A DNA stretch of 64,000 bases from Streptomonospora litoralis (GTDB lineage: Bacteria > Actinomycetota > Actinomycetes > Streptosporangiales > Streptosporangiaceae): the NCBI RefSeq assembly GCF_004323735.1, contig NZ_CP036455.1:1855101-1919100 (forward strand). The letters are read 5' to 3'. This document shows, piece by piece, positions 34,411 to 58,587 of this stretch (position 1 is its first letter; every line of letters begins with the position of its first letter). A model generated the notes under the pieces. It saw only the letters and a list, made by a program, of their open reading frames with translations. It made no database searches and had not been told where the DNA came from. The translations under genes and the position numbers were made by a program.

Positions 34411-36045
34411 TTATGCCGCGGGTTCGTCGGCGGTGGTCTGCCAGGGCCAGGCGGCGGCGCGGCCGGCCTCGAGCAGGGGGATGAGGCGGAAGCAGGCGTC
34501 GGTGAGTCCGCCGAAGGTGTGCCGGTGGCCGAGGCCGCTGGGGGCGTGACCGCGCTTGTAGCCGGCCAGGTTGAAGGTGTACATGGGCACCCGCTCGGGG
34601 ATGGCGGCGTGGACGCTGGGGCCGGCGGCCTGCTCGTCGGTGAGCAGCACGACGCGGTCGTGGCCGGCGTAGTGGCGGTGCAGGGCGGCTGCGGTATCGG
34701 TGCCGCCGCCGAGGAAGTAGCCGCCGCGCGACCACCGATCGAGGCTGCGCAGCAGGGACTCGCCGGCCTTCAGGGGGAACGCTGCGGTGTGGGCGCCGCG
34801 GGGGTCGCCGACGTAGCGCTGGGCGCTGGAGAAGCTGACGACCTCGGCGGCCGCGCAGCGGGCGGCCAGGGCGACGCCGAACAGGGCTGCGGCGTCCCAC
34901 CGCATCATGGTGCCGTCGGCCGAGAACCCGCTGTGCATGCTCGAGCTGGTGTCGACCATGACCAGGGTGCGGCCGGTCAGGGTCGGGATGTTGGCCAGCG
35001 AGTGGGTGAGCGCTTGGTCGAGGGCGTAGGCCCACCGCAGGCTCGGCGCCTGGCGGTAGGCGGTCAGGAACCGGAACGGGAACTGCTTGGAGCGGGCGAC
35101 CTGGTCGGGGTCGGCCAGCCGCTGGGCGACGTGCTGGGCGACGCTGTCGGGCACGCCGGCCTCGTCGAGGTTGCGGAGGTTACGCAGCGTGGCCATGTAG
35201 CCCATGGACGGCAGCACCGATTCCCACAGCGCCACCTTGTCGACGCGGTCGCCGGCGATCGACAGCACCTGCTCCCAGGTGAATGCGAGGTCGCGCAGCG
35301 CGTCGGGGTCGAGCAGGGCGGCGGGGTCCTCGGCGGCGCGGGCGCGCAGGCGCGCATGGCCGTTGAGCCGCTGCAGCGCGCCGGGGATGTCGGCGTCGGG
35401 GCGGTGGCGGCGGTCGATGGCGTAGCCGTAGAGGACGTCGCGCCAGGTGCCACGGATGTGGGGGTGGTGGGTGCGGGGCTGGACCAGCTCGACCACGTCG
35501 CCGAACCGGTAGTCGGCGGCGGAGCTGTCGTACTTGAGCATGGTGCGCTCGTTGTAGAGGTCCAGCAGGGCGTCGGCCACGCCGCGCTTGAGGGCGATGG
35601 GCATGCGGCGGCCGTAGCGGCCGTGCCAGTAGGCGATGAGCTCGCCGGGTTCGTCGGCGCGGCCCAAGGCGGCGCGCACGGCCGTGCGGGTGTGGCCGGA
35701 GGCGCCGGCCTCGGTGCGGGCGTGGGCCATCTCGGCGGCGGCGACGAGGGGCGCGGTGCGCATGTGGGCGCCGGTGCGTAGCCAGCCGATGAGGCCGGTG
35801 AGCCAGGCGGGGTCCTCCAGGGCCAGGCGGTGGACGAGGGTGCGGTAGCGGCCGTCGCGCACGCCGGCGGCCTCGTAGAACGTCTGTTCGCCGACGAGGT
35901 TGGTGACGGCGAGGAGGAACAGTTCGCTGCGGGGGTCGCGGGCGTGGCCGGGTGCGCCCTCGTGGGTGGCGCCGGAGGCGATCTCCTCGGCGCGGACGGG
36001 GCTGCGGCCGGCGGGTAGGGTGCCGCCGCGGTTGAACTTGGCCAT
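34411..36045 (-). CDS. Ro60-type RNA-binding protein (TROVE plus vWA domains)
   Basis: The 544-residue protein has a helical TROVE ring domain (about 15-350, with YDSSAADYRFGDVVELVQPR and LPSMGYMATLRNLRNLDE) and a C-terminal von Willebrand A domain with the MIDAS motif LVMVDTSSSMHS (D365, S367, S369) and GGGTDTAAAL. Ro60 binds Y RNAs on its outer surface and misfolded RNA ends in its central hole; bacterial Ro60 works with Y RNA and PNPase in RNA decay. Two tRNA-like RNAs lie just upstream on the same strand. GGAGGAG precedes the ATG. Confidence 0.92.
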   Translation of the reverse strand: MAKFNRGGTLPAGRSPVRAEEIASGATHEGAPGHARDPRSELFLLAVTNLVGEQTFYEAAGVRDGRYRTLVHRLALEDPAWLTGLIGWLRTGAHMRTAPLVAAAEMAHARTEAGASGHTRTAVRAALGRADEPGELIAYWHGRYGRRMPIALKRGVADALLDLYNERTMLKYDSSAADYRFGDVVELVQPRTHHPHIRGTWRDVLYGYAIDRRHRPDADIPGALQRLNGHARLRARAAEDPAALLDPDALRDLAFTWEQVLSIAGDRVDKVALWESVLPSMGYMATLRNLRNLDEAGVPDSVAQHVAQRLADPDQVARSKQFPFRFLTAYRQAPSLRWAYALDQALTHSLANIPTLTGRTLVMVDTSSSMHSGFSADGTMMRWDAAALFGVALAARCAAAEVVSFSSAQRYVGDPRGAHTAAFPLKAGESLLRSLDRWSRGGYFLGGGTDTAAALHRHYAGHDRVVLLTDEQAAGPSVHAAIPERVPMYTFNLAGYKRGHAPSGLGHRHTFGGLTDACFRLIPLLEAGRAAAWPWQTTADEPAA

Positions 36046-36149
36046 CGGGCTCCTCCTTCAGGGGTGGGAGGAGCGGCTCCATGGGCGGCCCGATAACAGG
36101 GTGGCGTCGGGGTTTAGTGTCCTTGGCCGCTGGACGACACCAGCCAGGG

Positions 36150-36292
36150 GCTGGCGGCGGGATTCGAACCCGCGTCTCTCCTTTGCGAGAGGAAGTATCC
36201 GGCACCGGCACTTCGGGCCGCCTATGGAGTTGTCCTCCCGAGAACGGGGCGGCGTCGGTACGTAAGCGCTCTGCCAGCTGAGCTACACCGGC
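36150..36292 (-). ncRNA. Candidate Y RNA 1 (tRNA-like, extended arm)
   Basis: Read on the minus strand, it begins like a tRNA: acceptor GCCGGTG, TA, and D-arm GCTC-AGCTGGCA-GAGC (36283-36268). It ends with T-arm GCGGG-TTCGAAT-CCCGC (36173-36157) and acceptor CGCCAGC, which pairs with the 5' strand at six of seven positions. Where the anticodon arm should be lie 94 nt that contain CCCGAAGTG, then GGATACTTC (36217-36192), and a CTCTC/GAGAG hairpin. A tRNA mimic next to Ro60 is the hallmark of bacterial Y RNAs. The exact ends and fold are inferred. Confidence 0.7.
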
Positions 36293-36296
36293 GTTA

Positions 36297-36391
36297 CCCG
36301 GTGACGGGACTCGAACCCGCGACCACTCGATTAACCATCGAAGTATCCGATGCCTGCACTTCGGTGAGGTGGAAATGACCGTAGCACCGGG
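36297..36391 (-). ncRNA. Candidate Y RNA 2 (tRNA-like)
   Basis: The 95-nt RNA lies 4 nt upstream of the first one. Acceptor strands CCCGGTG (36391-36385) and CACCGGG (36303-36297) pair at all seven positions and the T-arm is GCGGG-TTCGAGT-CCCGT. No normal D-arm is seen. The body carries ACCGAAGTG and GGATACTTC as in RNA 1, and CCACCTC pairs with GAGTGG with one bulged C. A GGTTAA loop could be read as an Asn anticodon, but base 33 would not be U, which argues against an ordinary tRNA. Confidence 0.65.
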
Positions 36392-40164: not shown

Positions 40165-40916
40165 GATGCGGCGGCCTCCAGGTCGGCGTCGGTCACCGGC
40201 GTGCGGCACGAGGAGCAGTAGGCGGTCGAGCCGGATTCGCGGACGACGGCGAGCAGCTCGCAGGCCGGGCAGATGACGCCGGGCACGGTCTCCAGGCGGC
40301 GGGTCTGGCCGGCGCGGGCGCGGGCGCGGCGGTGCAGGGTGAGGATCTCCTCGACGGCGTCGGCGGCGCCGAGGTCGACGGGGACGTGGGCGTCGTCGTC
40401 GCGGATGCGGCCGACGTCGGACAGCAGGTGGAGATCGCCGATGTCCTCGAGCTTGAATTGGCGCATCATCGGCTCCGGCGGCAGATTGAGCAGGACCTCG
40501 AGGTGGCGGCCGAGAGTGGTGGTGATGCGGGTCAGGGGGCGGCCGGCGGGCTGGGGGCCGAGGGTGGTGCGGTCGGTCAGCCGGGCGACGACGCGTACCC
40601 GCTCCTCCCAGCTCGCGAGGACCTCGTACAGCTCGCGCATGAGGGCGTCGACGTCGCCGCGGATCGGCAGCGGCGCCTCGGCGCGGCCGGTGCCGCCGCT
40701 GCGCTCACCCAGCGGGCGGCTGGTGGGGCGCAGGTGCAGCCATAGCCAGGCGTAGAGCTCGGGGAACTCGGCGATGGCGTCGGCGAGGATGCGCCGGTCG
40801 GCCTCGCACAGCAGCCGCGGGCCCCAGGCGCCGCGGTACTCGCGCTGGTCGTCGATCCAGTAGGTGGCGCAGCGTTCGCCGCGCGCGCACTCACGGCCGT
40901 CGGAGTCCTCATGCAT
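40161..40916 (-). CDS. Conserved-type phage protein with C-terminal zinc ribbon (251 aa)
   Basis: An N-terminal part with Cys/His residues (ECARGERCATYW) is followed by a helical core (RILADAIAEFPELYAWLWLH, VRVVARLTDRTTLGPQP) and a C-terminal zinc ribbon, VICPACELLAVVRES then YCSSCRTPV. Proteins of this layout are frequent in actinophages and streptomycete elements; DNA binding is plausible. Confidence 0.65.
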   Translation of the reverse strand: MHEDSDGRECARGERCATYWIDDQREYRGAWGPRLLCEADRRILADAIAEFPELYAWLWLHLRPTSRPLGERSGGTGRAEAPLPIRGDVDALMRELYEVLASWEERVRVVARLTDRTTLGPQPAGRPLTRITTTLGRHLEVLLNLPPEPMMRQFKLEDIGDLHLLSDVGRIRDDDAHVPVDLGAADAVEEILTLHRRARARAGQTRRLETVPGVICPACELLAVVRESGSTAYCSSCRTPVTDADLEAAAS

Positions 40917-41562
40917 GGGTGCTGTCCTCCTGCTCGTCGGTGGTGTGGCGCCACCGCTCCCAGGCGGCCTGGCGGGTGATGCCCAGCTCAGACCCGATCT
41001 GTTCCCATGTCCAGCCGTGGTGACGTGCGTGGGCGACTGCGCGGCGCGTCAGGTGCTGGGCGTGGTCGGTGGCGCCGAGGGCGGTGCGGATCTGCTCGGT
41101 CGGGATGGAGCGGGTGTGGGTGATGATGTCGTCGGCGGCGCGGGCGGTGACGTCGTGGAGGGCGGTGAGGCGGGCCTCCAGTTCGTCGACGCGGTCGCAC
41201 CGGTGGGGGGCGTGCGGGTCGCCGGTGGTGCCCCAGGGCAGCATCAGCCCGTCGCCGTCGGTGCGCGGGACGACGTGGATGTGCAGGTGGTACACGGATT
41301 GGGTCGCGGCCGCGCCGATCGAGGTGAGGATGTTGGTGGAGGCCCACGCGTCGGCGAGCTGGGCGGCGCGCCGCATGACGTGGGCGGTGATCTCGGGGTC
41401 GGCGACGGCGTGGGCGACGTGGCGGCGCGGGATGACGAGCGTGTGCCCCGGCACCACGGGGTTGAGCGGTGTGATCGCGAGGGCCTCCGGCCAGGAGTCC
41501 ACGACGGTGGCGGGCGCGTCGCCGTCGACGATGCGGCAGAACACGCAGCTCGGGTCACGCAT
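40909..41562 (-). CDS. HIT-family hydrolase fused to an HTH-like domain
   Basis: Residues 1-115 form a HIT domain: zinc-type start CVFCRIVDGDAPA, TPLNPVVPGHTLVIPRRHV, and the catalytic triad VYHLHIHVVP (HxHxH). HIT enzymes cleave nucleoside phosphoramidates or dinucleoside polyphosphates. The C-terminal part (about 165-210) has GWTWEQIGSELGITRQAAWE, a clear helix-turn-helix. AGGAGG precedes the ATG. The fusion suggests nucleotide sensing linked to DNA binding, or targeting of a hydrolase to DNA. Confidence 0.8.
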   Translation of the reverse strand: MRDPSCVFCRIVDGDAPATVVDSWPEALAITPLNPVVPGHTLVIPRRHVAHAVADPEITAHVMRRAAQLADAWASTNILTSIGAAATQSVYHLHIHVVPRTDGDGLMLPWGTTGDPHAPHRCDRVDELEARLTALHDVTARAADDIITHTRSIPTEQIRTALGATDHAQHLTRRAVAHARHHGWTWEQIGSELGITRQAAWERWRHTTDEQEDSTHA

Positions 41563-56317: not shown

Positions 56318-56388
56318 ACTGGGCGCACGGAAAACCTCGCAACCATATGCGGACGGCGTTTCCGCGGAGTCGAGAACTCATAATCCTT

Positions 56389-56420
56389 GGGTCGCGGGTT
56401 CGAGCCCCGCCCGCCCTACT
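56389..56420 (+). repeat. Prophage attachment core: tRNA 3' end
   Basis: This 32-bp segment contains the T-arm GCGGGTTCGAGCCCCGC and acceptor end of a tRNA but no 5' half. Upstream CTCATAATCC looks like an anticodon loop with CAT. An identical 32-bp copy lies at 58246. Confidence 0.75.
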
Positions 56421-57836: not shown

Positions 57837-58587
57837 TGCTCCTCCCTCTGGTCGCCCTGGCCATGGGATGTGCCTCTCGCCGCGCCACGCCGAACACCGC
57901 GTTCGGCAACGGTTCGCCCACGATCGACGATTCGCCGCGGCCGGTGTCCGCAGCATCCGCTCAGGTCACATGCCGGTTCGCGGCGGTGCGGACACTGCGG
58001 ACACCGGCGCCTTTCCGATCTCCGAAAGGAGTGCTCAGCGGAACCGTCCAATGGCTGGCTCCGCCTCTCGGCGAGGGACGCAGAGCGGTCGGCGGCCGCC
58101 GCGCGAGGCGGTCTCGTGCCGCCGGCTCGCCGTGTACTTTGGCGAATGCGCGGTGAAGAATACGCCGACGGGCCCAGCCTCTCTGCTTCGTAGCGCAGGT
58201 CAGGCGGGCCTTGTAGGGTGCTTGAGCGCAGGATCCGGAGTCCTCGGGTCGCGGGTTCGAGCCCCGCCCGCCCTACTTCTCGTGAGCATGAAGAAAGCGC
58301 TGCTGACCTGCCCTCGACAGGGCGGCGGCGATGTGCCGTGCGGCCGGTGCGCCGAATCTGTTGGCGGCGGGAACCGGCGTGCTCCGGTCGTCCGCGGCGA
58401 ATACGCGGCGGAGTTCGCCGCGGCCCGCACACCCTCGGGTACGAGGTCCGGTCGTCGCCGTGTCCGCGTAGGGCCGACGCGTCGTGGCGCTCCGGTGAAT
58501 GCGACTCCGGCGGGGCTGTGGGTAGTGGGGTAGGCGTGACCGTTGGGCCGACCGGTGGGGTCGGTCGGTATGCAGAGGAGGCAGCCC
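57837..58587. other. Gene-poor stretch with tRNA-like remnant and diverged repeats
   Basis: No gene is convincing. It holds a degenerate tRNA-like sequence (about 58214-58276: 5' GTAGGG and 3' CCCTAC could pair, D-arm missing) and diverged copies of a GGCGAATGCG-type unit at about 58139 and 58396 that also occurs at 56530, consistent with an old insertion. Confidence 0.5.
58246..58277 (+). repeat. Second copy of the 32-bp tRNA-tail core
   Basis: It is identical to 56389-56420, and the following 34 nt match at most positions (for example GAGCATGAA and GCTGACCTGC). Upstream the anticodon region differs (CCGGAG), so it is not a simple duplication of the prophage junction. Confidence 0.75.

Follow-up and report, generated by a model that had tools for sequence, protein, structure and literature searches.

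Two tandem RNAs upstream of a prophage ro60 gene in Streptomonospora litoralis are best read as Y RNAs with circularly permuted tRNA heads

What kind of RNA lies directly upstream of a phage-borne ro60 gene in Streptomonospora litoralis? The question is raised by a 64-kb stretch of DNA (the window; positions 1855101-1919100 on contig 1 of the 5.81-Mb genome), in which ro60 is preceded on the minus strand by two tandem units built of tRNA-like arms. A reading made from the letters alone, here called the sequence-only reading, had described a phage Ro60-Y RNA system in which each unit was a tRNA with a Y stem replacing its anticodon arm. Our analysis upholds the Ro60-Y RNA system by sequence and fold, the phage being an integrated prophage, and replaces the anatomy. 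Each RNA is best read, by comparison of related sequences, as a YrlA-type Y RNA whose two ends form a basal stem and whose head is a circularly permuted tRNA. That the locus consists of Ro60 and tandem Y RNAs is close to certain. The explanation as a whole, a prophage Ro60 ribonucleoprotein module in which such heads tether or gate RNA decay, would have a probability of roughly 0.6. The features are collected in Table 1.

Ro60/Rsr proteins are the bacterial counterparts of Ro60, an autoantigen in humans. The 544-amino-acid product of the window gene matched the Pfam TROVE family (PF05731) at 64.3 bits, against a cutoff of 23, and its AlphaFold model (predicted local distance difference test, 85.4; predicted template modeling score, 0.80) has the overall Ro60/Rsr fold. 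Indeed, Foldseek ranks 1 to 13 for this model were all TROVE/Ro60/Rsr proteins (E, 2.7e-15 to 6.8e-9; template modeling score by query, 0.50 to 0.63), and the best structural matches included 9kop, 9l5y (the Ro60 of Thermus phage phiLo), 1yvp (Ro60 with RNAs), and 2nvo (Deinococcus Rsr). The residues D365, S367, S369, T449, and D470 were invariant across a 32-sequence alignment, and the first three of them presumably form a vWA-type metal site. PADLOC returned nothing for Ro60. On the protein, then, the sequence-only reading was right: a TROVE protein is encoded directly downstream of two tRNA-like units, on the same strand.

The RNAs were compared across 72 further ro60 loci (designated by L numbers), all picked by similarity to the prophage Ro60 and made up of 11 named phages, 13 viral contigs, and 48 bacterial genomes. 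Many of these loci, 16 of which were inspected directly, share upstream units of a common layout: after a start near CCCGGTGCG come GG[ATC]TACTTC, a T-arm, a hairpin, and finally a D-arm, and the unit closes near GATCTCGGG. Of the 45 distinct full units collected, 40 were aligned (alignment A1, both window units included); the remaining five, a single unit from each of L036, L041, L044, L051, and L059, had unusual or long inserts. A covariance model built from A1 (model R1) gave 194 matches at an E of ≤0.01 across 73 sources, and the best 150 of the 194 formed a second alignment, A2. At least one unit lay within 1.9 kb upstream of ro60 in 70 of the 72 loci, and at least two lay upstream in 59. 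Three of the loci (L022, L023, and L024) share the same sequence for at least 3.4 kb, and two others (L048 and L049) do so for 2.6 kb; the 72 loci thus amount to 69 distinct ones, for which the counts are 67 and 56. The adjacency of two copies, to which the sequence-only reading had attached special meaning, is therefore the usual arrangement, and a single detected unit was found in 11 of the 72 loci. Matches to R1 confined to about model positions 29 to 107 resemble tandem tRNA genes and were not counted as Y RNAs; dropping them changes neither 70 nor 59 of the 72. An upstream unit was not detected in L034 and L007. In the latter, from Arthrobacter phage Atuin, the R1 matches nearest ro60 (L007:4898-5194) are downstream of it. 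Units downstream of or away from ro60 also occur in L069 and L114; the L114 unit (L114:1501-1640) sits among 14 tRNA matches, and a tblastn search with the window Ro60 found no convincing match in the 3140 bases of L114 (best E, 0.79). In a wider sample, R1 matched 64 of 394 genomes of the class at an E of ≤1e-6, some of them over the tRNA-like part only, in the manner of tandem tRNA genes.

The structure carried by this alignment is conserved. In its final form, 96.5% of 1299 pair cells in A1 held a standard pair, both sides had changed in 21 of 33 pairs, and covariation was found in each helix. The covariation score was 0.472 (0.440 for the first version of the structure), compared with 0.161 in shuffles, none of 500 reaching the observed value, and with at most 0.117 when the strands were slid. 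The two end-pairing helices, 1 and 2, were paired in 96.6% and 95.7% of cells, and this basal stem is presumed to be the Ro60-binding stem. The acceptor was closed with 7 or 8 base pairs (bp) in 31 of the 40 units, and CCA stood in the acceptor region of 3. Because the acceptor is closed and CCA is mostly absent, it is unlikely that these RNAs are charged with an amino acid or are ordinary tRNAs. When the units were re-ordered in silico into tRNA order, ARAGORN called 34 of the 40, five without a proper anticodon, and none of 400 shuffled versions; the two window units were called as Asn-GTT and Ala-CGC. In the window as it stands, the tRNA scan that the sequence-only reading had proposed called no tRNA gene, and the window units lack the combination of a native-order call, a free acceptor end, and CCA expected of a functional tRNA.

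A permuted head and a tRNA with a grafted Y stem differ in where one unit ends and the next begins. The acceptor stems claimed in the sequence-only reading pair strands of neighboring units, so that each of its "tRNAs" comprises halves of two Y RNAs. Its RNA 2 seemed to have no D-arm because that arm had been assigned to RNA 1, and the D-arm at 36135-36119, which belongs to the second true unit, was overlooked. The Rfam YrlA model, whose use as a check had also been proposed, matched both window units, at 40.4 bits on Y1 (E, 1.5e-7; 36327-36265) and at 18.7 bits on Y2 (E, 0.27; 36176-36119), in both cases below the gathering score of 69. The 40.4-bit match runs from the T-arm of the former RNA 2 into the D-arm of the former RNA 1 and therefore suggests the shifted register. 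The acceptor hairpin gave the most direct comparison: all six pairs formed within the unit itself in 37 of 40 units, against 115 of 1560 mismatched combinations. In each of six neighboring unit pairs, the permuted register reached 6/6 acceptor pairs in both units, whereas the tRNA register gave six pairs once, five four times, and three once, with 5/6 between Y1 and Y2. These near-complete stems, together with a 38.3-bit match of the Rfam tRNA model to 36292-36149 with an 85-nucleotide (nt) insert, which is the former RNA 1, speak for tandem tRNA-like RNAs with real acceptor stems, tRNA end processing, and a Ro60 stem in place of the anticodon arm. That account is nonetheless very improbable, and its register was set aside: the acceptor hairpins close inside one permuted unit, 11 of the 72 loci have a single detected unit, and CCA is scarce. 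Since a short loop joins the acceptor strands, tRNA-type end processing is judged unlikely. Decaying phage tRNA genes with a chance similarity can be given next to no weight. There are tRNA genes around ro60 in several phage relatives, but the compensatory changes seen in every helix and the presence of units in 70 of the 72 loci contradict this origin unless the alignment is wrong.

The sequence-only reading had also allowed the RNAs no usable anticodon arm, which the comparison does not bear out. Most aligned units form a local hairpin in the stretch that separates the second stem from the T-arm, and in 25 of the 40, both window RNAs included, it consists of three local pairs and a 7-nt loop of the anticodon type. 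Among these 25 loops, U33 was kept in 24, A38 in all, and a purine at position 37 in 21, and A34 occurred in none; the triplets at the anticodon positions vary (16 kinds). The upper pairs, at alignment columns (33,43) and (34,42), covary locally. Two lower anticodon-stem pairs, which covary as well, form with the strand after the D-arm, (45,117) with GC 18, AU 16, GU 3, and other 2 and (46,116) with GC 27, CG 4, UA 3, UG 2, AU 1, and other 3; the Ro60 stem would therefore leave between tRNA positions 28 and 29. A local 5-bp anticodon stem, as in the first drawing, was rejected, the two lower pairs fitting the strand after the D-arm better. The loop recurs in 68 distinct further units, meaning units that match neither A1 nor A2. 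Of these, 51 had a T-loop, and 34 of the 51 had a 3-bp stem with a 7-nt loop, against 425 of 2550 mismatched combinations, the units having been scored at the better of two offsets, which gives them a slight advantage over the control. The 34 loops had U33 in 28 and A38 in 32, and where the D-arm flank was parsed (27 of 34), pair 28-42 formed in 27/27 and pair 27-43 in 26/27. A broader parse found the 7-nt loop in 36 of 111 distinct T-loop units; this count and that of 34/51 include a few false ones (chance stems, e.g., L043 and L073:4534-4652). A34 was present in 2/36 and 3/34 of these broader sets, compared with 0/25 in the strict one. Some units have no such loop and resemble ordinary YrlA (e.g., L013, L019, and L059), and the loop is also found on units from bacterial genome contigs. 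We found no description of an anticodon loop on Y RNAs among the titles and abstract openings listed by the literature searches, a set that did not extend to the primary Y RNA papers.

Both window units follow this plan. Model R1 scored Y1 at 124 bits (E, 5.6e-24; 36370-36232) and Y2 at 103.8 bits (E, 8.3e-20; 36222-36084), scores that are not independent, as both units are among the 40 that built the model. The motifs CCGAAGTG and, after it, GGATACTTC, which had been noticed from the sequence alone, are present in both tRNA-like units.

Table 1. Features of the Y RNA-ro60 locus, in window positions; the exact ends of Y1 and Y2 are approximate
Feature	Position	Strand	Basis or remark
Y RNA 1 (Y1): basal stem CCUC/GAGG + CCGA/UCGG, second stem, permuted tRNA cloverleaf	~36234..36369	-	Model R1, covariation in A1
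Y RNA 2 (Y2): basal stem CUCCAU/AUGGAG + GGCGGCCCGA/UCGGGCCGCC, second stem (one C-A mismatch), permuted cloverleaf	~36077..36229	-	Model R1
Y1 upper anticodon stem-loop CGA-UGGUUAA-UCG; GUU at anticodon positions, G for U at 33	36328..36340	-	A1 pairs (33,43) and (34,42) covary
Y2 upper anticodon stem-loop CCU-CUCGCAA-AGG; CGC at anticodon positions	36180..36192	-	
Y1 T-arm	36304..36320	-	
Y1 closed acceptor hairpin CACCGG-GUAACG-CCGGUG	36286..36303	-	36303-36298 pairs with 36291-36286
Y1 D-arm	36268..36283	-	
Y2 T-arm	36157..36173	-	
Y2 closed acceptor hairpin CGCCAGCC-CCU-GGCUGGUG	36138..36156	-	36156-36149 pairs with 36145-36138
Y2 D-arm	36119..36135	-	
ro60/rsr gene, 544 amino acids, TROVE and vWA-like domain with DxSxS (D365, S367, S369)	34411..36045	-	Pfam, AlphaFold/Foldseek, alignment
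Candidate -10 element TACGGT of the Y-ro60 transcript	36378..36383	-	TANNNT enrichment before arrays
8-bp hairpin GCUCCUCC-CACCCCUGAA-GGAGGAGC holding the likely ro60 ribosome-binding site	36049..36074	-	Role unproven

The locus is carried by a prophage of about 58 kb integrated in a tRNA-Met gene. Its extent follows from the phage genes inside the window (terminase, portal, head protease, major head, minor tail, and integrase) and from a repeat of the tRNA-Met 3' half at both ends: the copy at window positions 56372-56419 recurs at 1853044-1853091 with 98% identity over 48 nt. The left copy sits, outside the window, within the intact tRNA-Met(CAT) (G000:C1:1853017-1853092), which puts the left end of the prophage about 2 kb beyond the window edge. 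A third, partial tRNA-Met copy at window positions 58241-58287 (91% over 47 nt), 1.9 kb to the right of the right end, is perhaps an older integration scar. Elsewhere in the window, at 40909-41562, is a gene for a HIT-domain protein with a helix-turn-helix-like tail and a weak PADLOC match to ThsC. The S. litoralis genome has one TROVE gene, and the R1 search of it found no second Y RNA of comparable score. In a separate search of 41 genomes, a TROVE gene was present in 10, S. litoralis counted, and in none of the five others of the same genus. The host genome encodes PNPase (TIGR03591, 859 bits; G000:C1:4426827-4428929), and a search of it for RtcB (Pfam PF01139) found no such gene.

Sequences flanking the arrays point to joint transcription. 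In 36 of 67 arrays, a TANNNT element preceded the first detected unit at a distance of 8 to 28 nt, against 15 of 266 in the control (L023, L024, and L049 were left out, and matches longer than 60 nt within 700 nt of ro60 were used). This placement suggests one promoter for Y1, Y2, and ro60. Between Y2 and ro60, the window leader can form a hairpin over the likely ribosome-binding site. Of 73 leaders, 40 had a stem of at least 7 bp, and in 27 of these the 3' arm contained a motif like a ribosome-binding site; shuffling the 73 leaders gave 28 such stems, which leaves an excess too weak to claim a conserved hairpin over the ro60 ribosome-binding site. In four loci (L014, L026, L028, and L045), the leader hairpin over the likely ribosome-binding site, no more than 55 nt before ro60, has CCCGGTGCG, the motif at which Y units start, in or beside its loop, which might let Ro60 bind its own mRNA.

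How might such a module work? A single transcript, probably started at the TACGGT promoter just upstream of Y1, would carry Y1, Y2, and ro60. The two ends of each Y RNA would fold to the basal stem, and the Ro60 ring would bind it. Beyond the stem, the head would present, in order, the upper anticodon arm, a variable region, the T-arm, the closed acceptor hairpin, the D-arm, and the lower anticodon-stem strand, and in this form it could neither carry an amino acid nor decode. Its most likely role would be to tether Ro60 to a host partner that recognizes the tRNA shape, the first candidate being PNPase, as in the RYPER complex of Deinococcus, or else to cover the Ro60 ring and give way when a structured RNA takes its place. 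The phage would thereby steer RNA decay, presumably to its own benefit. By analogy with characterized systems, this tether-or-gate mechanism is plausible at a little under even odds. Individual copies may differ in role, as the sequence-only reading imagined, because in many arrays a longer unit is accompanied by a short one that lacks a T-loop. Such short units, of about 72 to 82 nt and in tandem with longer ones (e.g., L012:2520-2599, L025:3734-3806, L040:4724-4799, L072:4731-4807, and L063:4869-4942), may be Y RNAs without a tRNA-like head.

Several results weigh against this picture. The free energy of Y1 as drawn was -41.6 kcal/mol, compared with a minimum of -56.5, and that of Y2 was -45.6, a value for which the acceptor was drawn incorrectly, compared with -81.3. 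Because energy minimization by itself favors other folds, it is comparison that carries the structure. Fragments with the boundaries of the sequence-only reading, whose folding had been proposed as a check, also showed hardly any folding advantage over shuffles, or none (z, -0.3 to -1.1). The tRNA register still yields 5/6 acceptor pairs in four of six neighboring pairs. Of 400 versions with swapped halves, ARAGORN called 194, and it called 10 of the 40 units left in their native order; the re-ordering test therefore speaks for the arms and less for the acceptor. As for the anticodon arm, 15 of the 40 aligned units do not have three local pairs with a 7-nt loop, the sole exception to U33 is the window's own Y1, with G, and the further units, which belong to related genomes, do not count as phylogenetically independent. 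The analysis shows the genes, the folds by comparison, the arrays, the prophage, and a host PNPase gene; from these we infer expression, Ro60 binding, PNPase tethering, and phage benefit, the binding of PNPase to such a head by analogy.

A loop kept in canonical form on an RNA that should not decode also invites other explanations. The head might be a decoy, an uncharged cloverleaf that soaks up anticodon nucleases or modification enzymes and so shields real tRNAs; the retention of U33, A38, and a mostly purine position 37 would fit this, and competitive inhibition of an anticodon nuclease was suggested for Salmonella YrlA in the part of that report available to us (PMC7790460). The same part says that YrlA fragments were not detected, however, and a simple anti-host device is disfavored because the loop occurs on bacterial contigs, some possibly prophage bearing, and is not limited to known phages, and because its triplets vary (16 kinds in 25 loops). 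We consider the decoy unlikely. A related conjecture, no better than an outside chance, sees the Y RNAs of actinobacteria and their phages as complete permuted tRNAs in which selection keeps an anticodon loop that has no part in decoding; held on the Ro60 ring, this loop would be the working end, a bait or dock for anticodon-loop enzymes such as anticodon nucleases. If so, the Ro60 module would sense or block tRNA damage during infection. The units and the hairpin at the ribosome-binding site might instead serve mainly to regulate ro60 as a leader that senses free Ro60. In its favor, the arrays are placed ahead of ro60, 36 of 67 have a promoter element in front of their first unit, and the window leader has its 8-bp hairpin. 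Set against this are the weak excess of such hairpins over shuffled leaders and the units downstream of or away from ro60 (L007, L069, and L114), and leader control as the main function seems rather improbable. The module of Ro60 and permuted-tRNA-headed Y RNAs remains our preferred explanation.

The interest of that module lies in its corrected anatomy, in the size of a sub-threshold actinobacterial family, and in the anticodon loop. Many actinobacteria and phages carry this Y RNA family, which is supported by comparison and falls short of the curated model's threshold in the loci tested. An anticodon loop conserved in an RNA that should not decode is a sharp, directly testable clue to the binding partner of the head. 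Y arrays may also account for some doubtful tRNA annotations in phage genomes. Public annotations overlap R1 matches upstream of ro60 at L005:2704-2775 (tRNA-Arg), L003:2774-2847 (tRNA-Ser), L004:2769-2843 (tRNA-Arg), L008:2745-2835 (tRNA-Pro), and L009:1835-1905 (tRNA-Cys), and these annotated phage tRNA genes may be pieces of Y RNAs.

Among known RNAs, the nearest is YrlA (RF02553), which a review, in its accessible part, compares with three arms of tRNA, namely D, T, and acceptor (PMC8394870). Like YrlA, the window RNAs have a basal stem made of their ends, followed by a T-arm, a closed acceptor hairpin, and a D-arm, and a place beside ro60. They differ in score and in the anticodon hairpin. 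At the gathering score of 69, the Rfam model had no match in the 13 of the 72 loci on which it was run; at a looser limit, it matched in 19 of 20 further loci, the best at 53.9 bits, so that none of the loci tested brings the family up to the threshold. As far as it is displayed, the Rfam consensus has four unpaired bases and no hairpin between stem and T-arm, where the window family has its added anticodon hairpin. Circularly permuted tRNA genes share the permuted order of tRNA parts (PMC3978253, in the portion consulted), but their transcripts are circularized and cut back to standard tRNA (PMC10085705, likewise in part), whereas in the window family the acceptor is closed and CCA is mostly absent.

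On the functional side, excerpts of PMC7790460 state that, as of 2020, bacterial Ro60/Y RNA function had been studied in Deinococcus radiodurans only. In the RYPER complex of that organism, a Y RNA tethers Rsr to PNPase, according to the sections seen of PMC8394870 and PMC8058203. The window module shares with it the Rsr fold, a tRNA-like Y RNA, and a PNPase gene in the host genome; it differs in being prophage encoded, and a tether here would be an analogy drawn from the genes. The rsr-yrlBA-rtcBA operon of Salmonella likewise joins a Ro60 to Y RNAs and differs in being regulated by RtcR and by damage (both from the same excerpts of PMC7790460), and RtcB was not found in the S. litoralis genome with PF01139. 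Streptomyces phage JustBecause has a gene annotated as an RNA ligase (L009:2229-2981) that separates its Y units from ro60 and recalls the Salmonella link of rsr to RtcB. Ro60-like proteins are themselves known from phages, including Thermus phiLo (9l5y), Listeria CKA15, cluster C and AF mycobacteriophages, and Streptomyces and Gordonia phages. Y RNAs are merely proposed in the available part of the CKA15 paper, and no full-cloverleaf Y RNA is described in the portions of the phage Ro60 literature that we consulted. With their end-paired stem, tRNA-like module, and position beside ro60, the window RNAs can be filed, on their sequences, as bacterial Y RNAs in the broad sense rather than as RF02553, the four-armed form being a putative variant. 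The finding is real, and it belongs to a known kind, that of phage Ro60 with Y RNAs.

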